From: Opitutia bacterium
GTDB lineage: Bacteria > Verrucomicrobiota > Verrucomicrobiia > Opitutales > Seribacteraceae
Direction: 5' to 3'
DNA: 64,000 nucleotides
Assembly: GCA_002730975.1 (NCBI GenBank)
Contig: PCBO01000152.1
Location: 1-64,000, forward strand
A program made the position numbers and the translations under genes. Positions 17,467 to 36,567 of this stretch are shown here, piece by piece (within the stretch, counting starts at the first letter, position 1; every line of letters begins with the position of its first letter). The notes beneath the pieces were generated by a model, which saw nothing but the letters and a program-made list of their open reading frames with translations, had not been told where the DNA came from and searched no databases.

Positions 17467-18735
17467 TTATTTAAGATTTTTTTTTCGGAGGGGTTGGCCA
17501 ATTGCGTGTTCCAGAGCGAGGTGAGCGAATTGGAATTGGTATCTGGCCTGAAGGAGTTTGCGACGGACTTCGAAGAGTCCGATGCGAAGCAGGTTTCGTG
17601 AGACAGGATCAATGTCTTGCCCATTGGGGCTCTCTTCTAGGGCAGGAGCAAGCTCGCTTTCGAGTTTTGCTGAGGCAGTTTCGTGCTGGCTGAGTTGCCG
17701 CGAGGTGGCTCGGTAATCACGCAGAGAGCTAGCGAGTGTGAGTCGGAGGTCACGGCGAGCAAGACGTTGGATGGCGAGATTTTCGTGTAATTCGGCGGTG
17801 GCTGCTTGAATGTCAGCCCGATGTCCCCACATTGGAATCTCTATGCCGATGAGAACGCCCCACTGGTCGGAGTCGGATGAAATGCGCCGATCATGTTCGA
17901 TATTACCCTGAAGGAAGGAGAACCAAGGGATACGGCGAGCCTCGGCTTGATGGATACGGGCCCGGGCGGCTTCACCTTCATGTTCGAGTGATATTAGCTC
18001 GGGGCGTCCCAGAGTGGCAGTGTAAAATAGGTTGTTGAGGGTAAGGTTAGAGGTGTTTTTATCTGGTTTGGAGAAAGCGGTTACTAGATTTACGGGTGTG
18101 CCTTCGGGTTGGTCGAGGAGTGCGAGTAAGGTGGAAGAAACACTTTCGTAGGTTCGTTCGGCTTTGGATGCTTCGGCGAGAGTTTCGTAGGTCTCGAGTC
18201 GACTTTCAAGAGCTTTTGGAAGGGTGAGTTGGCCTGCTTTGACAAGTATGTCGTTGGCTGTACGGATGGCCGCTTGTGTTTCGGCGATTTCGTGGGCAAG
18301 AAGAGCATCTTTTTTCCGATAAAGAGTTTCAAAATAAAGCCGCTTGACCTGGTTTGAAAGGATGTTCTCACTCAGCTTGAGACGTATGCGTGCGACTTCG
18401 GTTCTGGCTTCGCCTTCTTCCACCAGAGCTTTTGTTTCCCATGGGTTGTTAAGTCGAAAGCGTAGGGCATATTCTTGACTGGATTCACCTGCGAGACGAC
18501 CTTCGTCTTGGCGAAGGCGAAGCTCAGGTGAAGGCATGGCGCCTATGGTGCGAAGGCGGGCGCGGACGGATGTAATGTGATTGCGTGGAGCATCAAGGTT
18601 TTCGGTGTTGTTCCTCGCCAGTTCGAGAGCTTGTTCAAGTGAAAGATTCCGAGTGGCGTTGGTGTCTTGGGCTTGTATGACTGATGCGAAAAAAATGAAG
18701 AATACGAAGATTGCTGCATATACGAGCCCTTTCAT
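17467..18735 (-). CDS. TolC-like outer-membrane efflux protein
   Basis: A protein of about 422 residues with a signal peptide (MKGLVYAAIFVFFIFFASVIQAQ) and two long helical hairpin halves typical of TolC/OEP proteins: ALELARNN near the N-terminus, a central GRPELISLEHEGEAARA, and ARYQFQFAHLALEHAIGQPL near the end. The start is set at ATG 18735, eight bases after the HlyD gene; an earlier ATG at 18801 lies inside HlyD. Last of a four-gene operon: VTC polyphosphate polymerase, DUF4956, HlyD, TolC. It should form the outer-membrane exit channel. No ABC transporter or RND pump is encoded beside it, which is unusual. Confidence 0.85.
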   Translation of the reverse strand: MKGLVYAAIFVFFIFFASVIQAQDTNATRNLSLEQALELARNNTENLDAPRNHITSVRARLRTIGAMPSPELRLRQDEGRLAGESSQEYALRFRLNNPWETKALVEEGEARTEVARIRLKLSENILSNQVKRLYFETLYRKKDALLAHEIAETQAAIRTANDILVKAGQLTLPKALESRLETYETLAEASKAERTYESVSSTLLALLDQPEGTPVNLVTAFSKPDKNTSNLTLNNLFYTATLGRPELISLEHEGEAARARIHQAEARRIPWFSFLQGNIEHDRRISSDSDQWGVLIGIEIPMWGHRADIQAATAELHENLAIQRLARRDLRLTLASSLRDYRATSRQLSQHETASAKLESELAPALEESPNGQDIDPVSRNLLRIGLFEVRRKLLQARYQFQFAHLALEHAIGQPLRKKNLK

Positions 18736-18743: not shown

Positions 18744-19862
18744 TCAGGAACCGCGTAGGAATCCAAAAAAACCTATCGAGGTGGTTTCGATTACTACCCA
18801 CTCGCCGGGGACGAGTGCATCGTGATCTTGGCCCGTGATCGATCGGAGTTGGATGTTGCGTCCACGAGCCATGCGATTCGGGGCGTTGCGGACGCGCCCG
18901 GGGAAGTTGAGTATGTGAGGGGTAACGGAAACGACCTCCATTCGGATTTCGGCAGAGGGGTTGGTTTCAGAGTATACGACTAGTTCGTCGCCAACGGTGG
19001 GTTGAAGGTGGGCGAAACGTTCGGGCTGGAAGCCCATTACTCGCTTTACTTCCTTACCATTTGAAGGGTCGTACTCCTTAATGATAAGACGGGCGATTGG
19101 CTCACCTGCGGGGACGTTTTCTCCTCTTTGGAAGGAGATTTCCGCTACCACCCCGTCATTGGCGGCTTTAAGAAAGCAGTGTTCACGACGTTGCTCTAGA
19201 AGAGCGAGGCGGTTATTGCCGGGGCGTTCGATTGTGTGTAGCTCTGCGAGGCGTGCGATTGAATCTTCCAGATCTGCCTCCACTTTAGAGATAAGCGAGG
19301 GGTGCATATCCCCTCGCTTTGCTAAGACTGCGATCTTGGACTCGAGTTCACTCACGATTTCTCGGTCCACCAATCCTTGCTCAAGCAATCCTTGAAGCCG
19401 TTCGAGTTGGCGCGATAATATGGCTATTTCAGCGGAATCGGAGGCTTGGTCCATGAGTAGCTCGCTAACATCTACGCGAATGCGTTGGACGGATGAGGTG
19501 AAGCGGCGATCGCGATCGAGACGGTCGAGTTCTAATTCTTCCCTGATTGAGGCGATTTGTTTATCGATAAGGCTTGTGTCGAGGACGATGAGGAGATCTC
19601 CGCGAGATATCTTTTGGCCGATTGCGACCTTTATGTCCTCGATGCGTCCAACTTCACGACTAGAAATGGATTCGAAGTCAAATTCTACGGTTCCGTTCAG
19701 TTCATAATATCCGCCCCCATATTCGTATAGGGCGAAGAGTGCGGGAATGAAGAGAAGCCAAACGAAAAGAGGCCACTTCCTACAGATGCGTCCGAGGCTG
19801 CTGCCGCTGTGACGTTTAGGGGCAGGTCTTTGAGGCGCTGAAGTTGTTCCTTCGTTAGACAT
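18744..19862 (-). CDS. HlyD-family periplasmic adaptor
   Basis: A 372-residue membrane-fusion protein. A short cytoplasmic tail (residues 1-30) is followed by one transmembrane helix (WPLFVWLLFIPALFALYEYG, ~30-50). A biotinyl-lipoyl-like half comes next (GRIEDIKVAIGQKISRGDLL), then a long alpha-hairpin of coiled coil rich in Arg/Glu/Leu (~100-215), then the second lipoyl half and a beta-barrel (DGVVAEISFQRGENVPAGEP). It lies three bases after DUF4956 and eight before the TolC-like gene. HlyD proteins join an inner-membrane pump to TolC. Since no ABC ATPase/permease is present, DUF4956 or a distant pump would have to be the partner; that is inference. Confidence 0.88.
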   Translation of the reverse strand: MSNEGTTSAPQRPAPKRHSGSSLGRICRKWPLFVWLLFIPALFALYEYGGGYYELNGTVEFDFESISSREVGRIEDIKVAIGQKISRGDLLIVLDTSLIDKQIASIREELELDRLDRDRRFTSSVQRIRVDVSELLMDQASDSAEIAILSRQLERLQGLLEQGLVDREIVSELESKIAVLAKRGDMHPSLISKVEADLEDSIARLAELHTIERPGNNRLALLEQRREHCFLKAANDGVVAEISFQRGENVPAGEPIARLIIKEYDPSNGKEVKRVMGFQPERFAHLQPTVGDELVVYSETNPSAEIRMEVVSVTPHILNFPGRVRNAPNRMARGRNIQLRSITGQDHDALVPGEWVVIETTSIGFFGFLRGS

Positions 19863-19865: not shown

Positions 19866-20549
19866 TCAAATTTCCACGGTTGAGCGCTGCATGACCATGC
19901 TCACATCCTCGATGGCTTCGATAGCTTCGAGATCGACGATCAGGTCGGATTTTCCGGACGGATCCAGCAGGCGAACCTGGTAGGAGTGCTCAACAGCCTC
20001 TCCCTGAATGGCTTCACGCATGGCGACCATGTTGACTGAAGAAGTGTGGCGTTCAAAGACCTCACGGGTTAATGCTTCTCCAGATTCTCCTTTGGGTAAA
20101 ATAAAGCGAACCAGTCCCTCGAATGAACGGCGAGAGGCAAAGGGCGAGTAGTGCAGAAAAAGTACGGCGAAACAGAAAAACACCGGTCCTATTATGGCGA
20201 CGTCAACAACTTGAGCTCCAGCGGCGATGCCTGAGGCGAGACTGGCGAATAAAAAAATAATGTCGCGGGGATCACGGATGGGCGTGCGGAAGCGAATGAG
20301 GGCGAGGGCTCCGAGAATGCCGAGACCCCGGGCTAGATTGTTGCCTATTGCTATGATCATTATGCAGGCCACGATAGAGGCGAGCGCAATGGTTTGCACA
20401 AAAGTGCGAGAGTAAGAGTAACCTGTGTGCGTTCGTTGATAGACGGCGGCTAACAACAGCGACATGACAAAGCTGAGCAGGAGGGAGAAGAGAATCTGCA
20501 AAGGACTAAACGCCCGAGCGGGTCCCAATGCGTTAAAAATCGCTTCCAT
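19866..20549 (-). CDS. DUF4956 membrane protein
   Basis: A 227-residue protein with four to five transmembrane helices in the first ~140 residues and a cytoplasmic C-terminal domain. The DUF4956 signature GNNLARGLGILGALALIRFRTPIRDPRDI is plain (cited in pieces: GNNLARGLGI, ALIRFRTPIRDPRDI). The start is taken at ATG 20549, overlapping the end of the VTC gene by 17 bases, which indicates translational coupling. To my recollection, DUF4956 genes often sit beside VTC polyphosphate polymerases and CotH-kinase proteins in bacteria, and all three are present here. Function is unknown; a role as membrane partner of the polymerase or as part of an export path is plausible. Confidence 0.85.
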   Translation of the reverse strand: MEAIFNALGPARAFSPLQILFSLLLSFVMSLLLAAVYQRTHTGYSYSRTFVQTIALASIVACIMIIAIGNNLARGLGILGALALIRFRTPIRDPRDIIFLFASLASGIAAGAQVVDVAIIGPVFFCFAVLFLHYSPFASRRSFEGLVRFILPKGESGEALTREVFERHTSSVNMVAMREAIQGEAVEHSYQVRLLDPSGKSDLIVDLEAIEAIEDVSMVMQRSTVEI

Positions 20550-21300
20550 CTTCGTAGGAACAGTTCTCAGAGACATCAGAATAGGCACTGCCTCGAAATA
20601 GGGACTCTAATCTCATAGCAGTTGAATACTTACAAAACCCAGTGTTCACGAGATCAAAACGTTCAACCATTTCCGCCATCCACTCGGGGAATTCGGTTTC
20701 GGACTTCAGTTCTAGAATCTGTCCAGGGTATTCGCGGGACAAGGATGTTTGGGTGTCCATCGTGTACCAACGAGCGGATAAGGGTGGGAATGTCCAAGAA
20801 CCTCGAGCGGGTCGATAGCGAAGGCGTCGATCGATGGTTACGCGGGCATAGCGTTCGCTAATACCTTTATAGGACTCTCGGACATAGTTGACGTAGACAA
20901 ACGGTCTTGCGCCTATCTCCCGCACGAGCCGAACGAACTCAAGATAATTCATATTCTCTGCTTCGTTTGCAAAAGGGATAATCCTTGTGGGATGTAAAAT
21001 GTTTTCCTTTGAAAAGTCTTTTGGCTGCAAGACTGCGCGACTCTTCAGAATCATAATGTTAATTTTTCGTTTGATTTCCAAAAAATATGGGCATTCGTTG
21101 CCTGATCCATATGTGCGTATTCGTAATTTAAAACGAGTTCTAGCCTTCCGTTCTTTAGCGTAATGAAGGGTTGCGTTTGCCGCATCTAGTTGAAGAGTGG
21201 TAACTAGGTACTCGGGAATGTTCCCGTTGGAATGCTCATCCTCGTAAACGAATGGGCGAATAAACCGTCGAATCTCTGGAACTTGCTCCGGGGTGACCAC
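20533..21300 (-). CDS. VTC-domain polyphosphate polymerase
   Basis: At least 255 residues of the VTC (triphosphate-tunnel) fold, which makes polyphosphate from nucleotide triphosphate. Tunnel motifs are visible in order: RTRFKLRIRTYG, YFLEIKRKIN, VNYVRESYKG, VTIDRRLRYRP, ILELKSETEFPEWM and GFCKYSTAMRLE. The first usual start codon is GTG 21300, but the frame stays open for another 32 codons upstream and encodes DRYECKYVV, the conserved N-terminal strand of the fold. The true protein therefore probably starts further upstream at an ATA, ATT or ATC codon (21324, 21375 or 21366). First gene of the operon with DUF4956, HlyD and TolC, divergent from the giant CotH protein. Confidence 0.85.
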   Translation of the reverse strand: MVTPEQVPEIRRFIRPFVYEDEHSNGNIPEYLVTTLQLDAANATLHYAKERKARTRFKLRIRTYGSGNECPYFLEIKRKINIMILKSRAVLQPKDFSKENILHPTRIIPFANEAENMNYLEFVRLVREIGARPFVYVNYVRESYKGISERYARVTIDRRLRYRPARGSWTFPPLSARWYTMDTQTSLSREYPGQILELKSETEFPEWMAEMVERFDLVNTGFCKYSTAMRLESLFRGSAYSDVSENCSYEDGSDF

Positions 21301-21318
21301 ATATTTGCACTCGTAGCG

Positions 21319-21552
21319 ATCTATTTGTCGGTCACTTGTTGGGATAGATGCTTGTGGACTAGTGATAGTAAGAATTTTGTGTTGAAGTTTATAATCTCAA
21401 ACGAGTAACGAGGGATTGCAAAATTTTAATCAAGCTCACAAACTGATTAAGAAAATGTTATTATGGGAAAAACACGATACTTCTCAAGCAAATCGTTTGA
21501 TGGGAGCAAAGGTCTCTTTTCTCAGAGACTCTGCCTGTAACTTCATACTGTT
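21319..21552. promoter_or_regulatory. Divergent intergenic region between the VTC operon and the giant gene
   Basis: An AT-rich stretch that must carry the promoters for both the minus-strand VTC operon and the plus-strand giant gene. The right half of the minus-strand N-terminal extension (up to the in-frame TGA at 21397-21399) lies within it. I could not pick convincing -35/-10 boxes or an operator. Confidence 0.4.
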
Positions 21553-24500
21553 TTGCCCAATGACGAACCATCTTATCGTCTATCCCTCTTGAAAAAAACT
21601 GCAAATAGTTGGATTAGATGGCGAACACTCGTTCTTGCATTCTCGGTGGCTCTTAGTCCCAGCTCGTCTTTCGGCGAAGCCATGTTGCAATACTTCAACA
21701 CTAGCTGGGCCGAGATCACTAACAGGATGCCCGAATTAGCGGAAGCGGGCTACTCTTCGCTTTGGCTACCCCCGCCGACGAAGGGAAGCGGTGCACTCTC
21801 GGTCGGTTACGACCTGTGGGACCCGTTTGATCTTGGTGGACGAGAGCAACGAGGTACTTTCCAAACGCGATATGGTACTGAGTCGGAACTGCATCGATTA
21901 ATAGAAATGGCTCATAGGTTTGGCATTCGAGTGTATTTCGACAATATCATGAATCACCGTGCTTTTGACGTTCCCGGTTACAACGAGCACGCTCCCGAAG
22001 ACTTGTATCCGGGAATGCGTCCCGAGGATTTTCACATTAGACGAACCTCTGACGGACTTTATCGAAAATGGGATAATGTTCGCGAATGGTGGAGCGAGTG
22101 GCAGGTACAAAACCTCGGACTTGCAGATCTAATCGATATTGCGGCGGAACCTGGAATAACCAATCGGAACTTCGGCGAGTGGGAAGGCGCTACGGCGGAG
22201 AAGATCAAGTTTCTTCGACATCCCGATAATCCGGAATTCTATTGTTACGATGCAAACGGCAGCTACGTCGGTTTTGGAAAGGACAACGGGCTCACGGTTG
22301 AATACCTCGCTCAACATGAGGCCTTTTACTCGGAATACGTTGAGCTTTATCTAAACCGAGCTGCTCGTTGGCTTCTAGACCGTACAAAGGCCGATGGTTT
22401 ACGATTGGATGCCGTTAAGCATATACCGGCCGATTTTTTTGGCGCCACTTTTGGAGCAGATAGAGATCGTAGCAACTACGGTTACCTTGGGCAGGCTCAG
22501 GAGCAATTCAACCTTACTCGAGGTTTTTCGGATTGGGATAACCATCGAGATACCGTCTTCGATACCGAGCGTCCGAGGGATGACGCCATGATGTTCGGTG
22601 AACACCTTGGATCTCCCCCAGCGGTCGAAGATTACATCAATGCAGGTATGCGTCTTCTTGATAATGACCTTCGCCATCATCTAAATAGCCAGCTTGGAAA
22701 TCCATGGGGCACCTTGGCTGGAATGGATGAATCCGGAAGCCATGGTTTTGCGACGGGTTCTTCAGTTATGCACGCCCAAAGCCACGATAGCGATTTTGCC
22801 GCGCGTCGTGAGTTGCAACACGCTTTTTACCTTACTCGTGGAGGAATCGGAATAATTTACTCGGACGGCAACCATAAGGCAGGTCTTCTCAAAGGAAGCG
22901 GAGGAGCTTTTCCACGCCATGCAAACACCAATTTCCTGGGTCAATTTGGAGACAACCGGATTCCTAATCTCCTATATTTTCACGAACACTTTGTCAGGGG
23001 GTATCAAGTGGGGCGCTGGAGCGATGGCGACGTAGTGGTTTACGAACGAGTAGACAAGCGAGATAATCCCGGCATGTCCGATTCCGCAGGTACGGTCGGA
23101 CTTATTATGATTAACGATAATTACTCAAGTGGTCAGGCGCGGGTTTTTAACACAGGCTTTTTCGCTGACGCCGGAACTGACAATGACGCTTACCTCTATA
23201 ATTATTCATCCTATGGTGGAGGCTTTTACCAGTATGCCAGTAATTTAAGCCAGGTGGTGATTCCTGCAGGGGGCTATTTCCTGTTTTCCTGGAGGAGCCC
23301 GGAACCCTCGGACCTGTGGGAATCAGTGGGAGGGCACCCCTTGAGCATTTTACAAGATGGCTTAGAAGTGGAAACCATTTCGGTTAGAAGAACTGACGGG
23401 GCTGATGGTGATCCCGCTTTCAATCCTTATGGCGTATCCGATGCCAACCAAACTGACTTTTCTTATTTATGGAAAGTGCCAAGGGTAACTAATGGCAAGA
23501 ACTTGAAGTTCGTAGTTCGGGCCGATGGTTCGGCTGAGAATATTTTACTGAATATCGATGGAGGACTTGACGTTAATGGTAACGGCCGACGGGACAATCC
23601 GCCTGCACTTGCCTCTGATGTTTACCTTGGATTCGAGCAAATGGATTTCGTCGGAAGACAAGGGCCGGAAAAATTTGCCGCCGGCGACATAAGTCGCAAC
23701 ATGATAGGATCCGTAGGGGCAGAAACCTATTGGTGGTCTGCCGATAACGGTTCTTTCTTCACCGTGAAGGGTGGTTCCGGGTCAGATTCATATGAAAATT
23801 ATACCGCCCATTGGGCGTATCACGCCCCAGAGCAAAACAATGACCAAGGGGAAAAGCAGTTTAAGGTTACGGGAAATTCGGCTACTGTTTGGGTGAAAGT
23901 AGGCTACAGCCTTGAGGTTAACCAAGCTCGCCTTTACCATGTTTCTGACGGCAGTAACCCTGAGGGAGCCGGGGGCAGCGGTATCGGTGCGACGCAAGTT
24001 ACCTCTTTTGCCTTCTCTCACTCCGACGTACAAGAACCTACCGTCGATTGGTGGAAAGCCTCCGTTCCTTTGCCCGACTCAGGAATCTTCAAATACAAGA
24101 TAGGTGTATATCGTAACGAGTTGAACGGTGCTTCGTTGGCCAGCGTTTTTCCGAAAAACGAGTCCTCCGTGGTTCTCAAAAAGAAGATGCTAACGACCTT
24201 CGAGGTAGACGGTTTTGATGCCGAAGCAATTGAGTATTATCCGCACCGCGACTATGGTGAAAAGGTGACTGGTCTGAAGGAGGGTTTTCATTTTGTGAAG
24301 GGACGGGCTTTCCTTAGTCGACTGGGGGAAGCCTCCATTTATAACACTTTTTCGCGTACCATTTACTACGATAGCAAGCGTCCCGAGGGTTCGGTCACAT
24401 TTCCCGGTGTAGACGGTGAGGAATTATTCGGTTCCGAATACGGGTTCGTTGTTCGCAGTGATTCGAGCGTTACCGAAGTGCTTTTCCATATTGATGATAA

Positions 24501-27500
24501 TGATCCGACTAACGATGATGGTCAGACTGGTGCTTTCAACGGCAACGGGGAAACCGGTGATGGAAATTCAAGTGCTTGGGCTCACGCTGAAGAAATGACT
24601 TCTCGACAAGATCTCGATGCCAGTCATCCTAAAGAATGGCGTTTCAGTTATCGCAATGTGCCATCAGGAGGAGAGGACGCCACGGTGCGGATAGCCCTCA
24701 GGGAGGCCTCCTCCTCAACCGATTTGACGCTTGGCGAAGAAGATGGTCACTTCCGCATACTAGAGCGAAAAGTGAAGACTAGCGGTCCCAGTCATCGACT
24801 CTTCCTGACTTGGCCTCAGCGAGACGGTGACAAGGTTGGGAAGGACTATATTATTAAGACTTACCTAAGTTCCGAACTCGTCAATGGTCGAAGTGATGCC
24901 GATATTATCGCCAACTTAACCGTCAGCATTGACGCATCTATGATCCAAGAGGCTCCTCATGCCTCCGCCGCAGTCCAAGACATCTCCAGTGCATGGGTGG
25001 AAAGAAACGTGGTCCCGGGGTTGGCTGCGCTCGCCTACAAGCTTCCCATCCTAAGGAACCCGGTGGGGGCTCCGGACGATTTTCGTCAGACCATCATTGT
25101 GGACTACAAGGATGCCGAGGCGGGCGTCGACTTGCGCACTATACGTACTGTCGTCACAGACTTCGTAAGTCACGGTGCTGTCAAGCCTATCCTTACTGTC
25201 AACGGGGTTTCTGCCGACTACACGACCACCAATCTGTTTTTGGACGAGGTTAAGGGAGAAAAGGAAACTTTGGAAGTCATTCTCGAGGTGCCTCACGTGA
25301 AGGTAGCGGAAGTCTACACCAACCTAAACAACCGCGATCTTGCTACTGTGGACTCGAACAAAGACGGTATCGAAGACGGGATTCAGCCACCGGGCCGTGA
25401 TTCAGTTTCGTTGGTTAACAACAACGGTTACTATCAAGTGCATACAATGACTTTCGACTCCAATCGCGGCGATGCGGGAGCATGGGTCTGCCAGCTTAAT
25501 GCTCGCAAGACAGGGGCCTATCGCTTGTCCGCACGCTTCAAGTTGGAGAACGATGCCGATGTCTGGCACTGGTACACGAGCGATGGGCGTCGCGATCACG
25601 CGGTAGTTGTTACTCCGAAGAAGGTTCGTGGGGCCGTCATGTACGAACTGAACCCGCTCACTGTTGATGCCACTGGAGACACTTTCGAGAGTAGAAGTAC
25701 CTTCGATGACTTGCACGACGAGAACCGCTGGAATCTTCAATACCTTAAGGGAATTGGCGCAAATTGGCTCTGGTTTCAACCCATCCATCCCCGTGGAGTC
25801 GACGGCCGCGAAAATATCAATGGTCAACCCTATGACCCAGGTAGTCCCTACGCGGTAAAGAACTTCTTCGAGGTGATGCCGCAACTGAGTCGTGCCAACA
25901 ACCGGCCCGCCGCCATGCAGGCTTTTAAGGATTTCGTAACAGCGGCTGATGCAGAGGGAATAAGTGTCATGGTGGATGCTCCCTTCAATCATGTTGCGTG
26001 GGATGCTGAACTGGACGAGGAAGGGGTGGCAATCTTCGATACGGGCCTCCCCGAAGATGAAATTCGAAAGATACTCCCTGGTTTCTTTTCTCGTAAAGAT
26101 GATTATGGCTTTCCCGCCCGTGACGAAAACGAAATTGCTACGGCTCCCGACCGCGACGACTTCGGTAAGTGGGAGGACGTCAAGGATGTCTACTTCGGCA
26201 ACTACTCGGCTCTCGTTCAGGGTAACGATCCAGCCGAACGAAACTCTCATCAGAATGAGGAGGATGCCTTCGACTACGCCGGCGAAGGTTGGAATGATCT
26301 TACCCGAAGGACTTGGAGGTACTTCGCCTCCTATGTTCCCTATTGGTTGGAGAAGACCGGCCTGCCTCCAGGACAGCCACTCAGCGTTCAAGCCCAAACG
26401 GGTATCGATGGCCTTCGGGCTGACTTTGGTCAAGGTTTGCCACCCCAGCTCTGGGAGTACGTTATCAATGTGGCTCGCTCCCGCAAATGGAGTTTCGTAT
26501 TCATGTCGGAGGCTCTGGACGGTGGGGCGGTCACCTATCGTTCGAGTCGACACTTCGACGTCCTGAATGAAAACATCGCCTTCGCTCTAAAGTCCTCCTC
26601 CAAACCTAGTGACTATCATGCGGCCTTCGAAAACCGCCGTACGGTCTACGGAGACAGTCTCGTACTTCTGAACAACGTCTCCCATGATGAGGAGAACCTT
26701 CACGACCCCTGGCAAGCATTCATTCGTTATGCTGTCTCAAGTACCAATGATGGCGTCCCTATGCTCTTCATGGGGCAGGAACTGGGTATCTCCCGCACCT
26801 ATGGATTCAGTCACTATGAGACCAATTTCGGCAAGCAGGTGCCCCACTTCAAACGATACAATTCGATGCAACCAATTTGGGATAATGCGGACTTCGGTTT
26901 GGATCAGCTTTACAATGCCTATGCGAGTATAGGACGAGCACGATCTAGTAGTCCCGCCTTAAGTTCCCCTAATCGCTATTTTCTCAACGACCTATCCACC
27001 AACGCGCCGCACGGAAAAATCCATGCAACAGCCAAATGGGAGAAATCTGTGTCCTCGCCCAGTACCTCAGATCTCCTCCTCACCTTCGTTAATCTGGAGC
27101 GCGATAATCAGCAGGCGGGTACCTTCGACTTAAGTCCGGGTGGAGACGACACGCTCTTCGGACTCGAGAAGGACCACCTTTACAATGTCTCCAACTTGGC
27201 CGCCTTTCAGGTTGAGTCGAAGGACTCGTTTCTCTGGACGCAGGCTCGATCCGGGCATGACTTGCTTGAGAACGGCATCTTCGTTCTCTTAAATCCGGTG
27301 CCCTCCGATCCAGAGGGTTGGGCGAATACTCCATACGAGGCCCAATTTTTAAAGGTACACGACCTTTCCGTTTCTCTGCTTGAAATGAACGCTACAACTG
27401 GAGGGAGCATGAAAGGTGCTGGAAGTTACTCATACGGCAGTCATGCAAACATTGAGGCGACTGCGGAACCTGGATACGCCTTCGATGGGTGGCTTGGTGC

Positions 27501-30500
27501 CGGGGTTGTTACCCCGTCCGCTACCCACACGACCATATCCATGACCGAACCTCGTTCAGTAACCGCCACTTTTCGTTTTACCGGTGACCCGGGGAACATG
27601 CCGACCATTTCGGAATTTATGGCATCGAACGACAAGACCCTATTTTCCGCTTCGGGAGATTCGGATGACTGGATTGAGATTCACAATCCAAGTACAAATT
27701 CTATAGATTTGAGCGATTGGTACCTGACCAACGACCCCGCTAACCCAGCTATGTGGCGCTTCCCTGTTGGAACCATTCTCGAGGGGAATGATCGCCTCGT
27801 TGTCTTCGCCTCTGGTTTAGGTCCGGCAGCAAACGCAAGTGCGGTTTCAACTCGTGCTTCCGACCTTCTTGCTCATTGGACTTTCGACGAGGGGAGCGGT
27901 ACGCGTACCGCAGATCAGAGCGGCAACAACCACGACATCTCAAGTATCGGTGGTGCGACTTGGACCGACGGAAAGTTCGGTAAGGCGTTTTTCTACGAGG
28001 GAGGTTCGACTGCTCTGCCCTTGGCTGCCCATCCTCCAGCATCGGGCACCGAATTCTCCATATCTTTCTGGAGTTATGGTGACCCTGTTGAATTACCTGG
28101 CAAGAATACCAGCATCATCGAGTCTGGCGGGCTGAGTGGTCGTATTTTGAATATTCATTTCCCTTGGAGCAACGGTAATGTCTACTGGGACGTCGGGGAT
28201 GGTGGTTCCGACCGGATTAACACAGCTATTGACGATAGTTACCTGTTGGGAAAGTGGTCGCATTGGGTATTTGTGCACAACCGGACTACGGGAAATCAGA
28301 AATTTTACCTAAACGGTTCGGAAGAAATTTCAGCTTCGGGTAGAACTCGACAACTTGGAACAGTAAATCGATGGTATCTTGGATCCAACCTTAATGGTAA
28401 CAGTTCCTATTGGTACGGCAAAGTGGATGACCTTCGGGTGTACGGGGTGGAACTTTCCAGTTCCGACGTCAAGTCAATCTATCGTGAGAACCCTTGGCGT
28501 ACGCACACGACCTTTAAGCTCGATGCTTCAGGAGGTTACCTCGCACTCATGAAAAGCGACGCTACAGTTGGCAAAATTGTCAACTATTCAAAACAGGTAG
28601 AGGACTACTCCTACGGCATACCTTCCAATAAGGTTCTTCCCTCTGATTCCTATCTCAAGTCGGCAACGCCAGGTAAGGAGAACGAAGAGGGGTTCCTGGG
28701 TTTCGTTGCAGATACTAAGTTCAATGTAGATCGTGGGTTTTTCGTAAGTCCTTTTACTCTCTCAATAACCACAGCCACTTCTGGAGCTACTATTCGATAC
28801 ACTACCGATGGTTCAACTCCGTCTGCTTCTAACGGGAATGTATATACGACTCCCTTCCCTATAACCACCACCACCATCGTACGGGCCATTGCCACAAAGC
28901 CGGACTATGTTGCGACCGACGTAGACACCCAGAGTTATTTCTTTCCCGAAGATGTTATTCGCCAGTCAGCCGACGGCTTTACTCCGATCGGGTGGCCCGC
29001 CACCGGTGCAGTAAACAGCCAGAAGATGGTCTACGGGATGGACCCCGACATTGTGGATGGTTTTAATACTCCTGAGGAAGTGAAAGAAGCTCTGTTTGCT
29101 CTTCCCACGCTATCTATTGCAACCGAGTTGGATAACTTATTCGGACAATCGAACGGAATCTACGTTAACGCAAGGAACGATGGTCGATCTTGGGAAAGGC
29201 CAATGTCTCTTGAACTTATTCATCCGAAAGGAAGTAAAGGATTCCAAATCAATGCAGGGATGCGAATCAGAGGAGGATACAGTCGGAGCGCAAATAATCC
29301 GAAGCATTCATTCCGTATCTTCTTTCGGAGCGAATATGGACAAGGCAATTTGCATTACCCCATGTTCGAGGACGAGGGTGTGGAGGAGTTCGACAAGTTC
29401 GACCTCCGTACTTCGCAGAATTACTCGTGGGCCTTCGGGGGGCCTGCTCACAATACCATGGTTCGTGAGGTCTGGAGCCGCGATACCCAGTCCGCCATGG
29501 GGCAGCCCTACACACGAAGTCGCTACTATCACCTTTACCTTAATGGAGTTTATTGGGGAATCTACATGACTCAAGAGCGTGTCAGCGGTACCCTCTGCGA
29601 ATCCTACCTTGGAGGCGAAAAGAGCGACTATGATACAGTCCACCAAGACAGTTCCAGGCAAATTAACGCCACAGGCGGGAATTTGGAAGCTTACGACCGC
29701 CTTTGGCAGCGAACCATTGACGGATGGACGGACAACGACGATTATTTCCAAGCCCAAGGCCTTGGTGTGGATGGCAAGGCTCGAAACCCTGACTTTGAGA
29801 ATCTTCTGAATGTCGACAACCTCATCGACTACATGCTTATTGTCTACTACAACGGCGATCGAGATGGTCCAGCCTCCCGCTACACCACTCCTCGGGTGAA
29901 CAACTACTACGCCTTTTACAATAGGGCCAACCCCGATGGCTGGAAGTTTCCGGCTCACGACATGGAGCACTCTCTAGGGCGAGGCGAGAACAACATGGTA
30001 ACTCCACTGGCCAGCGACCATCAAGACCGAGATGAAAAAAAGTACTTTACCGCTCACTTTCTTCACGAACAACTTACCTCCAATCAGGAATACGTTATTC
30101 GTTTTGCAGATCGCTTTTATCTGAGACATTTTAACGATGGGGTCCTGTCGGAAGAAAATTCAAAAGCCCGAATTGCGTTTCGTTCGTCCCAGATTGACAA
30201 GGCTATCATCGCAGAATCCGCACGCTGGGGAGACACTAAGTCCGGTATCCCAAAGAATCGCAATGACTGGGTGAACAATGTGAAAATGGTCACCGACTGG
30301 ATGGTGGGGCGCAATGCCGTCGTCTTGAATCAACTGCGTACTACGCGGATCAATGCGAATTCCTCCTTTTGGTACCCGAGTATCGATCCACCGGGTTTCA
30401 GTCAACACGGCGGACAAGTGAGCTCCTCCTTCCGCCTTAGTATGTCTGATTCCAATTTGGCTCCAGTCACCATCCATTATACTCTTGACGAATCCGATCC

Positions 30501-33500
30501 TCGACTCGTTGGGGGAACCATTTCGCCTGTGGCTCAAGTGGCCCAAGCCAGTGGAATGCAAAACACTCTACTGCTTGATGCCGGTGCCCCCTCCAAGGCC
30601 TTCGTACCGATGAATAATTCATTTGGTTCCGCTTGGACTCAGCCTGGTTTCAACGATTCCTCATGGCATTCGGGAACGTCTGGCGTGGGTTACGATACCG
30701 CGACCACTTACCGTTCTCTCTTCGGCATTGATGTTTTGTCTGCTATGAGGAACAAAAATACGAGCGTTTATTTTCGAGTACCCTTCACCGCTACCAATTC
30801 TACGGCATTCACAAATCTCACTCTCAAGATTAAGTATGACGACGGGTTCATCGCCTATCTCAACGGCGCTAAGGTGGCTTCCGCCGGCGCGCCTTCAAAT
30901 CCTGCGTGGAATGGGAAGGCAACCTCCAGTCACAGTGATTCCGCTGCCCAGCAATATGTCTCTTTCGACCTTACGCCGCATCTTGGCCACTTGCGAGAAG
31001 GGGCTAATATACTGGCCTTTCATGGACTAAACATATCGATGGATAGTTCCGACATGCTTATCGTTCCTAGGCTTGAGGCAAGTAGAATCGTGGGCGGATC
31101 GGAAATTGCCCTTCCCGATTATCTCACGACCGTGAAGGCCCGTTCCCGTAGCACTTCGGGTGAATGGAGTGCTCTCCACGAAGCCTCATTTCAAGTGGAT
31201 GTCGTACCCGCCTCGGTCGACAATCTATTAATTTCAGAAATCATGTACAATCCCGCCGGAACAGGAGGCTCTGAGTATGTCGAGGTTCGTAATGTAGGAG
31301 CATTTCGCATCGACTTGACGGGAGTCACTTTAGGCGGAGCCTTTAATGATTTCACTTTTGGTTCTCTTAGCCTTGCTCCTGGCGAGAGCGCCGTTGTCGT
31401 CCAAGATATCGCTGGCTTCAACGCCCGGTACCTCGACCCCGTCTCCCCTTATTACTCTCCTAGTATCGTGGTGGCTGGCCAATGGCCGGAAGGCAAGCTG
31501 AATAATGCAGGCGAAACGATAACCCTGACTGATGGCAAGGGGGCAGGCATTCTAACCTTTAAGTACGACGACGGAGGCAATTGGCCGAGTCGCACCGACG
31601 GTCGAGGTAGTTCGCTCATCCTGCCCGATCCTAACGTCCTTGTCGGTATGACTCTCGACGAACGCAACGTTTATCTTGCCGATGGCGAGAATTGGAAGTC
31701 CTCCGAGGGCTTTCACGGTAATCCCGGAGCTGTCGAAGCAACTATAACTGGAGTCCCGATAGTCATAATCAGCGAGATTCTTGCTCATACGGATCCTCCT
31801 CTTCTTGATGCCATCGAACTACACAATCCAAGTTCTCAAGTCGTCGACTTGAGTGGCTGGCGCCTCACCGAATCCGCTTCAAGCCTACAGGGTTTTCGTA
31901 TCCCTGACGGCACTGTCATTCCGTCTGGAGGCTACCTTGTTTTTGACGAAACGGACTTTAATCCCAATGGCCTATGGAATCCTAACGCGGGAGCTCGTGG
32001 TTCCGATGAATTCGCTCTCAGCGGTGCCCGCGGCGGAGATGTCTGGTTACTTGAGGCTGATGGCGCTGGTAATTTACTTGCTTTCGTGGATCATGTCGAA
32101 TTCGGGGCATCGTCAAACGGAGTTTCCTTTGGGCGTTGGCCGAACGGTTCCGGGAGAAAACTCTATCCGATGAAGGAGCGTTCTCTCTTCGATGAAGCCT
32201 CTGCGACCTATCCACCTCAAAAACTTGGTGGTCCGAACCCAGGAGCGATGCGGGGTCAGATAATGATAAGCGAAATCATGTACAATCCACCTGGCGGGAA
32301 TGTGGATTTGGAGTTCGTTGAATTGTACAACTCCGGAGATTCTTCAGTATCCCTTTCGGGTTGGAATTTGGACAAGGGCGTAGATTTTACCTTTTCACCT
32401 GGAACTTTGCTTAAGCCCGGGAAATCCATAGTGGTGGTCGGCTTCGATCTCAATGCGACCGAAAAACTCACAGCTTTCAGGCTCGCCTATGGCATTGGTC
32501 CTGAAGTTCTTCTTGTCGGTGGTTGGAAGGGCAACCTTAACAACGGAGGCGAAACTATTTGCCTCCTCCGACCTGATGCACCGCCAGCGGACGATCCCAC
32601 TTTCACACCCATGCTTATTGAAGAAACTGTCACCTATTCAAACCTTTCTCCCTGGCCCAGCCAAGCTGATGGCAATGGAGCTTCTTTGGTTCGCAGCAAG
32701 CAGGACAGTTGGTCTGACGATATTCAAAGCTGGGGAATTTCTACAGGGACTCCTTCTCCGGGTCCATCGCCGAGTCTCAATAATCCACCCACCTTTACGA
32801 GCCCCCCCCCGATAGCGAAGATAGCTGTCGGGTCGATGTTCAGCCACCGATTCGTCGCAACAGACCCCGACGGAAATACCCTCTCCTTCTCCTCGCCTTC
32901 GACTCCCTTTTGGTTGAATTTTAGGGACGATGTTAACGGTTCGGCCGTCCTTTTCGGTAATCCGCCTCCTTATGTACTGGGTGCTCACACTGTTGTTATC
33001 AAGGTTTCCGATGGCATCGCGAACCCCATCGAGAAAATCTTCGTTTTGACGGTTGAGGATAATACCCCGCCAATTCTAACTTTGCGGGGTGCAGCTAATC
33101 TCTTTCACGAAGCGGGTACTCCTTATGTTGATTTGGGGGTAATCGCCGCGGATGCGGTTGACGGTGACTTGTCACCGAAGGTAATGGTGGTCAACCCCGT
33201 GAACATTAGTAATCCCGGAACCTATTTCGTTAGTTACTCGGTGAGTGACCAAGCTGGTAACGAAGCGTTGGGGCTTTCGAGAACTGTGGTCGTTGCCGAT
33301 ACGAAACCTCCAGTTTTTGACTTACTGGGAGGTGTCGTCCTATCGCACGAAGGGGCTACCCCTTTTACTGATCCCGGAGCTTATGCTTTTGATGTTCTTG
33401 ATGGAAATCTCACCGCTAATATTACCGTTAATGGCACAGTCGATGTAAATGTCACGGGGAATTACCAACTTACGTATGAAGTCATTGATAATGCTAATAA

Positions 33501-36500
33501 TTCCGCAACGTCTATCATCAGGACGGTTGTCGTGGTCGATAATACCCCCCCTGTTTTAACTCTCGTAGGTTCGCCCTCCGTCCAACTCTTGCTCGGTTCA
33601 ATTTTCATTGATCCGGGAACCGTCGCAATTGATGCTATGGATGGAAATCTTACGAACGACGTAGTTGTTTCAGGTGGGATAGACATAAACGTACCAGGAA
33701 CCTACTCGCTTCATTACAGCGTAAACGATGCCTCCGGGAACTCATCTCAGAGGGTTTCTCGAACCATTACAGTGGTTGGCATTCCGCCACCTGTGATAAC
33801 CTTACTGGGTGGAACTAGAGTTGTTCTTGATGAGGGCGAAGCATATGCGGAATTAGGTTTTTTTGCCGAAGATTCTCTGGACGGTAATCTGACTGCGGCC
33901 GTTGTGATTGGAGGGGACACGGTGGATGCAAATCGACCCGGTTCTTATTTCGTGACCTACGACGTTTTGAATTCCAAGGCAGTAGGTGCCACTCAAGCCA
34001 TTCGCAAGGTGATCGTGCATGACGTCACGGCACCGGTGCTAACTCTGTTAGGTTCGGAAACGATCTTTCACGAGGCAGTTACATCTTTCTCTGACCCCGG
34101 AGCTATCGCCAACGACGTAACTGATGGAAACCTGACCAACAGTATTACTGTTGGAGGGGATTTTGTGGATAGCGACCGTTTAGGCCTCTATGTCATCACT
34201 TACGATGTATCCGATAAGGCGGGCAACACTGCCGCCAGTCTAACTCGAACTGTAACGGTTAGGGATGATTCCGCTCCCGTAGTTAGCCTTCTCGGTGAAT
34301 CGAACGCCACACATGAAGCAGGGACACCCTACCACGACCTTGGAGCAACTGCCTTTGACGCGTTCAATGGAGATCTTTCTGGCGCCATAAAAGTTTCAGG
34401 AGATGTCAATGCAGACGAACCCGGACTGTATTTGCAAACCTACTCCGTTTCCGATATGGTAGGCAATGTCGGGCAAGTGGTTAGAGCGGTTAATGTTGTC
34501 GATACTATGCCACCCGTCCTCACTTTACTTGGTGAACTTAATGCGACTTTCGAGGCCGGACTTGGTCTCGGATTACTCTACTCCAGTGCTGTTGCTCAAG
34601 ATGTTTTGGATGGCAACCTAACAGATTTAATCATCGTTTCGGGTAATGTTAATGACCATGTCCAAGGAGATTATGTCATCGGCTACTCAGTTTCCGATAA
34701 GGCGGGCAATCCTTCACGGGTTCGGGAACGTATCGTTCGGATTAGGGATACACTACCACCTGTCCTTAGCCTCTTCGGGGGAAGGGAAATCACTATCGAA
34801 CCTGGCTCCCTATGGATCGAGCCGGGCGTGGGAGCCTTCGACCTCGCGGACGGCAACTTATCCGGCAAGGTTCTCGTTGTTGGCGAGGTGAACGTAAATA
34901 GCATCGGTGGCTATGAGTTAAACTATTCGGTTTCGGACAAAGCGGGGAACGCCGCGTCCACCCTCACTCGTATCGTCAATGTTCGCAGTTCGGCATCACC
35001 CGTCATTACGCTACTCGGGCCAGATACGGTGAGCCTAGATCAAGGGACTGCCTTTGTAGATCCCGGAGTCATCGCTCATGATTCTTTCGACGGCAACCTA
35101 ACTCATCTTATTCGAACCTACGACAATCTTGATGTGAACGTCCCCGGCATCCATCATATCGCTTATCTAGTTACTAACGCTTCTGGACTTTCCTCTAAGG
35201 AAGTTGTTCGTACGATCATCGTCAATGATCTCAATGACGCACCAACAACCAATGGCGTGGAAGCCTTCCTCTCCCCGATACGCGAAGATATTGGAAGTGG
35301 CGTTGGAAATCCAGGCGATACGGTATCCTCGCTTGTCGAAGGCATAACCGATCTGGACTCCAATGCCGTTCCTGGCTTCGCCCTTGTTGCAACCGATGAT
35401 TTCAATGGAACTTGGCAATATTCTTTGGACGGAGGCAAATCTTATTTCTCCGCAGGCAAAGTGACGCAAGCCAACGCCCTCCTTCTGCGTGCAGACGATC
35501 CAAAGACTCTTCTTCGGTTCGTGCCAAGGAGCGAATTTTTTGGTACAGCCTCACTCACCTTCCGAGCTTGGGACCAAACCGTAGGTGCCAATGGAGAACG
35601 TTTCACCATAGTTGAAACTGGTGGTCATTCCGCATTCAGTTCGGATGTTGCACTTGCCGTTATCAAGGTCGAGCCTTCGGAGGACTCACCTGTCTTCACA
35701 ACTGAACCAGTTCTACGCGGCAAGGCTCTTTCGAACTACTCCTACACCGTTACTGTTATCCATCCGGACGGAGAAGACTTCAGTCTTCATGCTGTCGCCT
35801 TGCCCCAATGGCTCTCCTTCGAGTTAAAAGCAGACGGTTCAGCTACTCTTGCAGGTATGCCCTCGGTAGGAAATGTCGGCGCTCATGCCGTTATTTTAAA
35901 GGCAACCGACGCTTCGGGCAAGTTTTCGGAGCAAAGCTTTGCCATCGCAGTTTCTTCAGGCAGGGTCTTCGATCTCGAATCTGGTTGGAATGGACTCGAC
36001 TGGTTCGGCCAATTCTACGTGTCTTCCAAAACTTGGATCTACCATCCTGAACACGGTTGGCTTTTCCCGGGAGAAAAAGCAGGAAGCAATGATTACGGTA
36101 TCTGGTTTTGGTCGGAGAGTCTTGGTTGGCACTGGACCCGCGAGGACGTTTACCCTCACCTCTATATTCGTCGTCGTCAACGTTCTGACCTAGACATCTT
36201 TCGTACAGACGAACTCTTTACCGCATTCGGTTGGTTCTTTTACCAACGGGAATCTCATCAACCCCGCTTATTTTTCGACTATAAGATAAACGATTGGATT
36301 GCCGATTCTCACTTTGCTCCAGTCCTTGTAAATGCGAATATTAACGACTCTCGAGGCGGTATTGTTTCAGGTGCGGGATCTCATGGACACGGAGACGAAG
36401 TCACTCTCGTGGCAGAACCCAATCCAGGCTATAAGTTCTTGAACTGGCGTGGTGCAATTCAAGGAGAATCACCCACCATCACTTTTATCATTACACGAAA

Positions 36501-36567
36501 TATTTCCCTGACTGCCAACTTCGAGAAACTTTCCGACGAGGAAATACTCAAAGGGGTCTTCGATTAA
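21553..36567 (+). CDS. Giant secreted multidomain protein: two GH13 domains, CotH kinase, lamin-tail, LamG, DUF5011 repeats
   Basis: About 5,000 residues; start TTG 21553 or TTG 21589, the latter giving a clean signal peptide. Domains by residue from 21553: GH13 amylase-type ~36-585 (D286, E350, H411-D412); beta-sandwich segments ~590-1350; second GH13 ~1357-1930 (D1624, E1653, H1711-D1712); InlB-like repeat ~1935-2012; lamin-tail domain (LTD) ~2015-2096 and 2313-2365 with LamG (2103-2312) nested inside; chitobiase-C-like ~2384-2465; CotH kinase ~2517-2935 (HDMEHSLGRG at 2802); chitobiase-C-like and jelly roll ~2937-3180; three more LTDs ~3223-3730; Ig/cadherin-like ~3743-3835; nine DUF5011 repeats 3839-4556; a further ~140-residue and an Ig-like domain; W-rich domain 4811-4922; InlB-like tail. 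Divergent from the VTC-DUF4956-HlyD-TolC operon. Likely an exported glucan-active surface protein. Confidence 0.9.
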   Translation: MPNDEPSYRLSLLKKTANSWIRWRTLVLAFSVALSPSSSFGEAMLQYFNTSWAEITNRMPELAEAGYSSLWLPPPTKGSGALSVGYDLWDPFDLGGREQRGTFQTRYGTESELHRLIEMAHRFGIRVYFDNIMNHRAFDVPGYNEHAPEDLYPGMRPEDFHIRRTSDGLYRKWDNVREWWSEWQVQNLGLADLIDIAAEPGITNRNFGEWEGATAEKIKFLRHPDNPEFYCYDANGSYVGFGKDNGLTVEYLAQHEAFYSEYVELYLNRAARWLLDRTKADGLRLDAVKHIPADFFGATFGADRDRSNYGYLGQAQEQFNLTRGFSDWDNHRDTVFDTERPRDDAMMFGEHLGSPPAVEDYINAGMRLLDNDLRHHLNSQLGNPWGTLAGMDESGSHGFATGSSVMHAQSHDSDFAARRELQHAFYLTRGGIGIIYSDGNHKAGLLKGSGGAFPRHANTNFLGQFGDNRIPNLLYFHEHFVRGYQVGRWSDGDVVVYERVDKRDNPGMSDSAGTVGLIMINDNYSSGQARVFNTGFFADAGTDNDAYLYNYSSYGGGFYQYASNLSQVVIPAGGYFLFSWRSPEPSDLWESVGGHPLSILQDGLEVETISVRRTDGADGDPAFNPYGVSDANQTDFSYLWKVPRVTNGKNLKFVVRADGSAENILLNIDGGLDVNGNGRRDNPPALASDVYLGFEQMDFVGRQGPEKFAAGDISRNMIGSVGAETYWWSADNGSFFTVKGGSGSDSYENYTAHWAYHAPEQNNDQGEKQFKVTGNSATVWVKVGYSLEVNQARLYHVSDGSNPEGAGGSGIGATQVTSFAFSHSDVQEPTVDWWKASVPLPDSGIFKYKIGVYRNELNGASLASVFPKNESSVVLKKKMLTTFEVDGFDAEAIEYYPHRDYGEKVTGLKEGFHFVKGRAFLSRLGEASIYNTFSRTIYYDSKRPEGSVTFPGVDGEELFGSEYGFVVRSDSSVTEVLFHIDDNDPTNDDGQTGAFNGNGETGDGNSSAWAHAEEMTSRQDLDASHPKEWRFSYRNVPSGGEDATVRIALREASSSTDLTLGEEDGHFRILERKVKTSGPSHRLFLTWPQRDGDKVGKDYIIKTYLSSELVNGRSDADIIANLTVSIDASMIQEAPHASAAVQDISSAWVERNVVPGLAALAYKLPILRNPVGAPDDFRQTIIVDYKDAEAGVDLRTIRTVVTDFVSHGAVKPILTVNGVSADYTTTNLFLDEVKGEKETLEVILEVPHVKVAEVYTNLNNRDLATVDSNKDGIEDGIQPPGRDSVSLVNNNGYYQVHTMTFDSNRGDAGAWVCQLNARKTGAYRLSARFKLENDADVWHWYTSDGRRDHAVVVTPKKVRGAVMYELNPLTVDATGDTFESRSTFDDLHDENRWNLQYLKGIGANWLWFQPIHPRGVDGRENINGQPYDPGSPYAVKNFFEVMPQLSRANNRPAAMQAFKDFVTAADAEGISVMVDAPFNHVAWDAELDEEGVAIFDTGLPEDEIRKILPGFFSRKDDYGFPARDENEIATAPDRDDFGKWEDVKDVYFGNYSALVQGNDPAERNSHQNEEDAFDYAGEGWNDLTRRTWRYFASYVPYWLEKTGLPPGQPLSVQAQTGIDGLRADFGQGLPPQLWEYVINVARSRKWSFVFMSEALDGGAVTYRSSRHFDVLNENIAFALKSSSKPSDYHAAFENRRTVYGDSLVLLNNVSHDEENLHDPWQAFIRYAVSSTNDGVPMLFMGQELGISRTYGFSHYETNFGKQVPHFKRYNSMQPIWDNADFGLDQLYNAYASIGRARSSSPALSSPNRYFLNDLSTNAPHGKIHATAKWEKSVSSPSTSDLLLTFVNLERDNQQAGTFDLSPGGDDTLFGLEKDHLYNVSNLAAFQVESKDSFLWTQARSGHDLLENGIFVLLNPVPSDPEGWANTPYEAQFLKVHDLSVSLLEMNATTGGSMKGAGSYSYGSHANIEATAEPGYAFDGWLGAGVVTPSATHTTISMTEPRSVTATFRFTGDPGNMPTISEFMASNDKTLFSASGDSDDWIEIHNPSTNSIDLSDWYLTNDPANPAMWRFPVGTILEGNDRLVVFASGLGPAANASAVSTRASDLLAHWTFDEGSGTRTADQSGNNHDISSIGGATWTDGKFGKAFFYEGGSTALPLAAHPPASGTEFSISFWSYGDPVELPGKNTSIIESGGLSGRILNIHFPWSNGNVYWDVGDGGSDRINTAIDDSYLLGKWSHWVFVHNRTTGNQKFYLNGSEEISASGRTRQLGTVNRWYLGSNLNGNSSYWYGKVDDLRVYGVELSSSDVKSIYRENPWRTHTTFKLDASGGYLALMKSDATVGKIVNYSKQVEDYSYGIPSNKVLPSDSYLKSATPGKENEEGFLGFVADTKFNVDRGFFVSPFTLSITTATSGATIRYTTDGSTPSASNGNVYTTPFPITTTTIVRAIATKPDYVATDVDTQSYFFPEDVIRQSADGFTPIGWPATGAVNSQKMVYGMDPDIVDGFNTPEEVKEALFALPTLSIATELDNLFGQSNGIYVNARNDGRSWERPMSLELIHPKGSKGFQINAGMRIRGGYSRSANNPKHSFRIFFRSEYGQGNLHYPMFEDEGVEEFDKFDLRTSQNYSWAFGGPAHNTMVREVWSRDTQSAMGQPYTRSRYYHLYLNGVYWGIYMTQERVSGTLCESYLGGEKSDYDTVHQDSSRQINATGGNLEAYDRLWQRTIDGWTDNDDYFQAQGLGVDGKARNPDFENLLNVDNLIDYMLIVYYNGDRDGPASRYTTPRVNNYYAFYNRANPDGWKFPAHDMEHSLGRGENNMVTPLASDHQDRDEKKYFTAHFLHEQLTSNQEYVIRFADRFYLRHFNDGVLSEENSKARIAFRSSQIDKAIIAESARWGDTKSGIPKNRNDWVNNVKMVTDWMVGRNAVVLNQLRTTRINANSSFWYPSIDPPGFSQHGGQVSSSFRLSMSDSNLAPVTIHYTLDESDPRLVGGTISPVAQVAQASGMQNTLLLDAGAPSKAFVPMNNSFGSAWTQPGFNDSSWHSGTSGVGYDTATTYRSLFGIDVLSAMRNKNTSVYFRVPFTATNSTAFTNLTLKIKYDDGFIAYLNGAKVASAGAPSNPAWNGKATSSHSDSAAQQYVSFDLTPHLGHLREGANILAFHGLNISMDSSDMLIVPRLEASRIVGGSEIALPDYLTTVKARSRSTSGEWSALHEASFQVDVVPASVDNLLISEIMYNPAGTGGSEYVEVRNVGAFRIDLTGVTLGGAFNDFTFGSLSLAPGESAVVVQDIAGFNARYLDPVSPYYSPSIVVAGQWPEGKLNNAGETITLTDGKGAGILTFKYDDGGNWPSRTDGRGSSLILPDPNVLVGMTLDERNVYLADGENWKSSEGFHGNPGAVEATITGVPIVIISEILAHTDPPLLDAIELHNPSSQVVDLSGWRLTESASSLQGFRIPDGTVIPSGGYLVFDETDFNPNGLWNPNAGARGSDEFALSGARGGDVWLLEADGAGNLLAFVDHVEFGASSNGVSFGRWPNGSGRKLYPMKERSLFDEASATYPPQKLGGPNPGAMRGQIMISEIMYNPPGGNVDLEFVELYNSGDSSVSLSGWNLDKGVDFTFSPGTLLKPGKSIVVVGFDLNATEKLTAFRLAYGIGPEVLLVGGWKGNLNNGGETICLLRPDAPPADDPTFTPMLIEETVTYSNLSPWPSQADGNGASLVRSKQDSWSDDIQSWGISTGTPSPGPSPSLNNPPTFTSPPPIAKIAVGSMFSHRFVATDPDGNTLSFSSPSTPFWLNFRDDVNGSAVLFGNPPPYVLGAHTVVIKVSDGIANPIEKIFVLTVEDNTPPILTLRGAANLFHEAGTPYVDLGVIAADAVDGDLSPKVMVVNPVNISNPGTYFVSYSVSDQAGNEALGLSRTVVVADTKPPVFDLLGGVVLSHEGATPFTDPGAYAFDVLDGNLTANITVNGTVDVNVTGNYQLTYEVIDNANNSATSIIRTVVVVDNTPPVLTLVGSPSVQLLLGSIFIDPGTVAIDAMDGNLTNDVVVSGGIDINVPGTYSLHYSVNDASGNSSQRVSRTITVVGIPPPVITLLGGTRVVLDEGEAYAELGFFAEDSLDGNLTAAVVIGGDTVDANRPGSYFVTYDVLNSKAVGATQAIRKVIVHDVTAPVLTLLGSETIFHEAVTSFSDPGAIANDVTDGNLTNSITVGGDFVDSDRLGLYVITYDVSDKAGNTAASLTRTVTVRDDSAPVVSLLGESNATHEAGTPYHDLGATAFDAFNGDLSGAIKVSGDVNADEPGLYLQTYSVSDMVGNVGQVVRAVNVVDTMPPVLTLLGELNATFEAGLGLGLLYSSAVAQDVLDGNLTDLIIVSGNVNDHVQGDYVIGYSVSDKAGNPSRVRERIVRIRDTLPPVLSLFGGREITIEPGSLWIEPGVGAFDLADGNLSGKVLVVGEVNVNSIGGYELNYSVSDKAGNAASTLTRIVNVRSSASPVITLLGPDTVSLDQGTAFVDPGVIAHDSFDGNLTHLIRTYDNLDVNVPGIHHIAYLVTNASGLSSKEVVRTIIVNDLNDAPTTNGVEAFLSPIREDIGSGVGNPGDTVSSLVEGITDLDSNAVPGFALVATDDFNGTWQYSLDGGKSYFSAGKVTQANALLLRADDPKTLLRFVPRSEFFGTASLTFRAWDQTVGANGERFTIVETGGHSAFSSDVALAVIKVEPSEDSPVFTTEPVLRGKALSNYSYTVTVIHPDGEDFSLHAVALPQWLSFELKADGSATLAGMPSVGNVGAHAVILKATDASGKFSEQSFAIAVSSGRVFDLESGWNGLDWFGQFYVSSKTWIYHPEHGWLFPGEKAGSNDYGIWFWSESLGWHWTREDVYPHLYIRRRQRSDLDIFRTDELFTAFGWFFYQRESHQPRLFFDYKINDWIADSHFAPVLVNANINDSRGGIVSGAGSHGHGDEVTLVAEPNPGYKFLNWRGAIQGESPTITFIITRNISLTANFEKLSDEEILKGVFD
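33067..35220 (+). repeat. Array of nine DUF5011 (Ig-like) repeats inside the giant gene
   Basis: Nine ~80-residue copies, each opening with a PPVLTLLG-like strand, then (F/Y)xDPGAxAxDxxDGNLT, and closing with a YSVSDxAGN motif. Copies differ by clear sequence drift, copy 7 is slightly longer, and no two are near identical, so this is an old array. The repeats probably form a rigid stalk. Confidence 0.88.

Follow-up and report, generated by a model that had tools for sequence, protein, structure and literature searches.

The accessory genes of Gram-positive pel operons are the closest described counterpart of the locus analysed here. The report on these operons gives the accessory set as CotH, polyphosphate polymerase, DUF4956 and DUF4832, and proposes that Pel is regulated by phosphorylation (Whitfield et al. 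2020, PMC7112168). VTC and CotH genes also lie together in one Clostridium locus. A precedent for the scheme outlined below is found in eukaryotes, where VTC is reported to couple polyphosphate synthesis to membrane translocation (PMC9911596). Substitution of Asp228 or Asp251 inactivates the CotH of Bacillus. This kinase acts with ATP, in a mother cell that contains ATP; HlyD adaptors, for their part, normally pair with an energised transporter. To our knowledge, it is not settled how bacteria place polyphosphate outside the cell, nor how a secreted kinase can act where ATP is absent; the operon described here suggests a concrete answer to each that can be tested.

The window, a stretch of 64,000 nucleotides from an Opitutia bacterium contig (PCBO01000152.1), holds genes for VTC, DUF4956, an HlyD-family adaptor, a TolC-family channel and a giant CotH-domain protein. 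A literature search agrees with the first-pass annotation of this DNA that no described system has all five parts, and the VTC-DUF4956-CotH core is already known (PMC7112168). HlyD-TolC was not found described with DUF4956 in the literature searched, which leaves most subscription papers outside and an unseen description possible; this extension of the core is apparently undescribed.

Gene organization and predicted components

The open reading frames lie where the first-pass annotation had placed them, and together with the Pfam matches they confirm four packed minus-strand genes divergent from a ~15-kb gene for a secreted CotH protein. The divergent region, put at ~230 bases in that annotation, agrees with the gap of about 200-250 bases between the VTC and giant genes (21355..21552, no strand assigned), but the VTC start that borders it is now placed upstream of the mechanical GTG.

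The gene for the VTC-domain polyphosphate polymerase (20533..21354, minus strand) matches Pfam VTC (PF09359) at 7e-28, with 98.2 bits against a cut-off of 23. The mechanical ORF covers 20533-21300, and the coding frame runs on 5' of its GTG start (21300) to about 21354, with the conserved sequence DRQIDRYECKYVV. Because this upstream stretch is conserved in relatives and contains the first catalytic lysine, the window VTC is longer than the mechanical ORF; Lys17 of the window enzyme falls upstream of the mechanical start. No ATG, GTG or TTG occurs in frame between 21300 and 21354 on the minus strand before the first stop, so that a rarer start codon, possibly ATT, is likely. A search with an alignment profile of VTC finds yeast VTC4 structures at 1e-18 to 1e-19. 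In 166 VTC copies, the glutamate that binds metal and the basic residues of the tunnel are invariant or nearly so. VTC probably makes polyphosphate. PPK1, the ordinary polyphosphate kinase, is also encoded in the source genome, and VTC is therefore not its sole polyphosphate enzyme. The VTC gene of a congener (locus L027) has the same upstream frame extension without an ATG, GTG or TTG start. Apparent overlaps of VTC with DUF4956 or CotH occur in L094, L100 and L115; a reading of these as fusions was rejected, since long open reading frames in a different phase seem to account for them.

The DUF4956 membrane protein (19866..20588, minus strand) matches PF16316 at 3e-12 (46.9 bits, cut-off 30.6). 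Its AlphaFold2 model (pLDDT 87) has five predicted membrane helices, followed at the C-terminus by a ferredoxin/ACT-like domain. Arg99 and Arg101 are the only invariant residues in an alignment of 129 DUF4956 sequences, and by the positive-inside rule they would face the cytoplasm. Structural matches are confined to the C-terminal domain (ribosomal S6, NikR, ACT and the MgtC C-terminal domain); the membrane part has no PDB match in a fold comparison that covers the C-terminal domain alone, and for the same reason the idea that its membrane fold is new was set aside. Because the membrane part has no PDB match, a channel role for DUF4956 rests on genomic context and the conserved arginines, and we lean towards its translocating polyphosphate. 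An alignment of diverse DUF4956 proteins gave no usable pattern, and one of closer proteins did; a scan of viral contigs with DUF4956 gave no matches. At L020:27-7055, a DUF4956-CotH gene pair is duplicated in tandem.

The HlyD-family periplasmic adaptor (18744..19862, minus strand) was assigned by a Pfam HlyD/biotinyl-lipoyl profile match and by an AlphaFold2 model (pLDDT 90.5) with a long alpha-hairpin and an EmrA/MacA-like fold, for which the top Foldseek matches are EmrA (4tko, 4e-17), MacA and EmrAB-TolC. The TolC-family outer-membrane channel (17467..18801, minus strand; Pfam OEP, 7e-17) probably starts at an internal ATG near 18735, directly past the HlyD stop, with a signal peptide. 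The operon thus holds a periplasmic adaptor and a channel of the tripartite-pump type, and Pfam detects no ABC, MFS or RND transporter within it.

On the plus strand, the giant gene (21553..36567) encodes 5004 amino acids, with a Sec-like signal seen by inspection at the N-terminus, followed by two GH13 regions, an LTD, LamG, CotH, further LTDs, nine bacterial Ig-like domains and a sorting-like C-terminal domain; Pfam recognizes alpha-amylase, LTD, LamG, CHB_HEX, CotH (1e-21) and the nine Ig-like domains. Its CotH kinase domain (29134..30345, plus strand) scores 77.9 bits against PF08757 (cut-off 23.8) and keeps both active-site aspartates, Asp2771 and Asp2803 being the equivalents of CotH Asp228 and Asp251. 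A phmmer search with the window CotH domain alone found no PDB match, and the CotH family profile does match PDB.

Conservation of the operon across genomes

The main survey sampled the phylum evenly, with 388 genomes. Its counts are not independent of phylogeny, but over thirty families are involved. DUF4956 and VTC are each present in 76/388 genomes, 74 of them in common (Fisher p 1e-74), and CotH is found in 73 of the 76 DUF4956 genomes but in 26 of the remaining 312 (odds ratio 268). The relation also holds for genera: of 52 with DUF4956, 50 have CotH. Near relatives have DUF4956 in 13/57 genomes. Among 14 control genomes, DUF4956 and VTC occur in the same three (Bacteroides ihuae, Corynebacterium glutamicum and Methanosarcina acetivorans); CotH occurs in two of these and in Bacillus subtilis, the latter giving no VTC or DUF4956 match. 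The proposed recurrence of VTC, DUF4956 and CotH together is thus upheld.

About 100 loci were annotated with profiles built from the loci themselves. HlyD adjoins 40 of the 90 DUF4956 genes in the phylum survey, and these loci have VTC in 40/40 and TolC in 26/40; among those with enough flank, nine of 26 have CotH within 6 kb. The other 50 DUF4956 genes, without adjacent HlyD, have VTC in 44/50 and TolC in 0/50, with CotH near 23/33. CotH density in the surveyed genomes is about one per Mb, which gives a chance expectation of about 0.02 per 20-kb window. Searching 84,980 named genomes for HlyD-type DUF4956 gave 109 loci; the best 80 of these are almost all from Verrucomicrobiota and close relatives (Kiritimatiellota, Lentisphaerota), and have VTC and HlyD wherever the contig allows, bar two loci in which HlyD does not adjoin. 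It is through this pattern scan of named genomes that the distribution of the HlyD type beyond Verrucomicrobiota and relatives is known. In cultured Pelagicoccus mobilis (L187), VTC, DUF4956, HlyD, TolC and CotH follow one another on one strand.

The order VTC-DUF4956-HlyD-TolC is conserved. VTC-DUF4956-HlyD is kept in 116 of 118 HlyD loci, some genomes being counted in both surveys, with median gaps of 18, 5 and -4 bases. In a tree of 117 DUF4956 proteins, those linked to HlyD group as a single clade. The labels change three times on the tree, and 38.8 times when shuffled; the tree was made by a quick method, with branch support of 91 for the whole HlyD clade and 100 for each of its two parts. 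HlyD-TolC is therefore a real part of the set, as had been proposed. The only clade members without adjacent HlyD, in genomes G398 and G199, have the same HlyD subfamily with TolC elsewhere in the genome. In G258, the break in HlyD linkage is most likely a contig end, the remaining HlyD, followed by TolC and CotH, lying at the end of another contig. Above about 150 bits, matches to the HlyD subfamily come from 43 genomes. Of these, 42 have DUF4956, and the remaining case is a contig-edge fragment. At L235 (G229:C37), a second copy of the subfamily lies away from VTC and DUF4956, in a genome that also has the operon. About a third of the HlyD loci, one whole subclade included, showed no TolC next to HlyD. 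One DUF4956-HlyD subclade, seen in L026, L030, L108, L140, L142, L146, L147, L148 and L150, carries an RFRN...RDTLD motif and has no adjoining TolC.

The set almost certainly forms one functional module.

A proposed polyphosphate route and its alternatives

In the reading that we favour, the four minus-strand genes would encode one envelope-spanning polyphosphate exporter. The cytoplasmic VTC would polymerise phosphate from ATP, and the chain would thread through DUF4956, in which the invariant Arg-Phe-Arg motif is predicted to lie at the mouth on the cytoplasmic side. Its passage across the periplasm and the outer membrane would then fall to HlyD and TolC. Outside the cell, where ATP is lacking, polyphosphate would serve CotH-domain surface proteins, most simply as the phosphate donor of the kinase, and the giant CotH protein would be one client of the exporter. 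In HlyD-less lineages, VTC-DUF4956 would deliver polyphosphate past the inner membrane only. CotH is nearly restricted to VTC-DUF4956 genomes, even where the genes lie apart. This suggests a dependence of extracytoplasmic CotH kinases on VTC-DUF4956, a donor outside the ATP pool being the obvious candidate. The Bacillus CotH, found without VTC or DUF4956, fits this dependence because ATP is present in the mother cell.

Against the exporter stand an HlyD adaptor without an energised transporter, the TolC missing beside about a third of HlyD loci, and the adjacency of CotH in only 9/26. We give about even chances that HlyD-TolC extends the polyphosphate path to the outside, and slightly lower ones that the four genes form a single exporter, the donor step left aside. 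That polyphosphate is the phosphate donor of CotH is a tentative suggestion. The full scheme, in which VTC and DUF4956 replace an ATP-driven transporter and polyphosphate leaves through HlyD-TolC to fuel extracellular CotH kinases, is more doubtful still; proof of export through HlyD-TolC would make the operon a tripartite machine of a new kind. The operon is conserved over many families and has its five genes side by side in a cultured species; Corynebacterium glutamicum and Methanosarcina acetivorans also possess the core families.

Alternatively, VTC and DUF4956 may act at the inner membrane only, as a maker or sensor of polyphosphate in an MgtC-like regulatory role for phosphate or the envelope, while HlyD-TolC exports some other small molecule together with an unlinked transporter. 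DUF4956 has weak Pfam similarity to MgtC and DUF1761 (17.8 bits against the MgtC profile, under the cut-off of 31.4), its architecture of five helices and a ferredoxin-like domain is compatible with this, as is the MgtC C-terminal domain among its structural matches, and genes for a MacB-like permease and an ABC ATPase lie elsewhere in the window. However, the HlyD subfamily is almost confined to VTC-DUF4956 genomes, the HlyD-linked DUF4956 proteins are a single clade, and no ABC, MFS or RND family was seen recurring beside the operon in the surveyed neighbourhoods. We regard this regulator as improbable.

A surface polysaccharide may be what is phosphorylated or decorated, with CotH as a glycan kinase (like some Fam20-type enzymes), VTC-DUF4956 giving activated phosphate and the GH13 and LamG domains binding the glycan. 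The CotH-VTC-DUF4956 set accompanies pel exopolysaccharide genes in Gram-positives (PMC7112168), and a GH13 protein is fused to CotH in the window and lies near the operon in several lineages. The giant, judging by its relatives, is a gene fusion: GH13 and CotH proteins are separate genes, one on each side of the operon, in one relative (L029/L153), and GH13 is fused to the LTD part in the congener L027, as in the window, which makes an assembly error peculiar to the window unlikely. Homologues of the second GH13-like region (25363..27432, plus strand) also flank the operon in G009, G128, G149, G277 and G390. However, the linkage is partial, most GH13 copies of the subfamily being unlinked, and among the annotated clusters that recur near the operon none was recognized as a polysaccharide gene family; no pel genes were found among the operon neighbours examined. 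A glycan target is also unlikely, at about the same level as the regulator. Giant GH13 proteins of the same subfamily are seen near VTC-DUF4956 in distant families at L088, L107, L113 and L128.

The first-pass annotation had instead taken HlyD-TolC as the dedicated exit of the giant surface protein that carries CotH; in this version VTC and DUF4956 give phosphate for the modification of that protein. In support of this, divergent adjacency is seen in the window, G009 and G048, and CotH directly follows TolC in P. mobilis and several others. However, no ABC transporter is present in the operon, nor an MFS or RND partner, and a minority of HlyD loci (9/26) have CotH nearby, while CotH proteins also adjoin VTC-DUF4956 in many loci that lack HlyD altogether. 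The large neighbours of the CotH-less HlyD loci that were checked are mostly unrelated (NRPS/PKS, a restriction enzyme, DUF1549), bar the GH13 giants of L113 and L128. In addition to its Sec-like signal, the giant ends in a Trp-rich domain (35830..36294, plus strand). The genome has 24 occurrences of this domain, close to the C-terminus in most of 20 places checked; it is common to about 20 other large secreted-looking proteins and is a candidate sorting domain. The signal and the shared domain point to a general export and sorting route for the giant rather than HlyD-TolC, and its dedicated exit by this pair is very improbable. The Trp-rich domain is unannotated and follows the pattern WFGxF..WxYH..GWxY..W.W..GWxWT.

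Finally, a chance arrangement of unrelated genes is refuted by the neighbourhood and genome-level statistics, since VTC, DUF4956 and CotH recur together, HlyD-TolC belongs to the set, and the survey found this linkage beyond the source genome.

Comparison with known systems

The Gram-positive pel accessory set clusters the same three core families (CotH, VTC and DUF4956), but is linked to pel, and HlyD and TolC are not described there; HlyD-TolC is a feature of the present operon. The Bacillus CotH spore-coat kinase shares the CotH domain and both active-site aspartates, whereas here the domain is embedded in a secreted protein of 5004 residues. Unlike type I secretion systems, the operon has no HlyB-type ABC gene, and the giant carries an N-terminal Sec-like signal. 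The eukaryotic VTC complex (yeast VTC4/VTC1) has a similar VTC catalytic domain with similar tunnel residues, and in both cases synthesis takes place next to a membrane component; however, the enzyme here has neither SPX nor a membrane domain of its own, and DUF4956 stands in place of the VTC transmembrane part. The EmrAB-TolC and MacAB-TolC pumps share the EmrA/MacA-like adaptor and the TolC-family channel, whereas the place taken in them by an MFS, ABC or RND transporter is occupied in the present operon by DUF4956.
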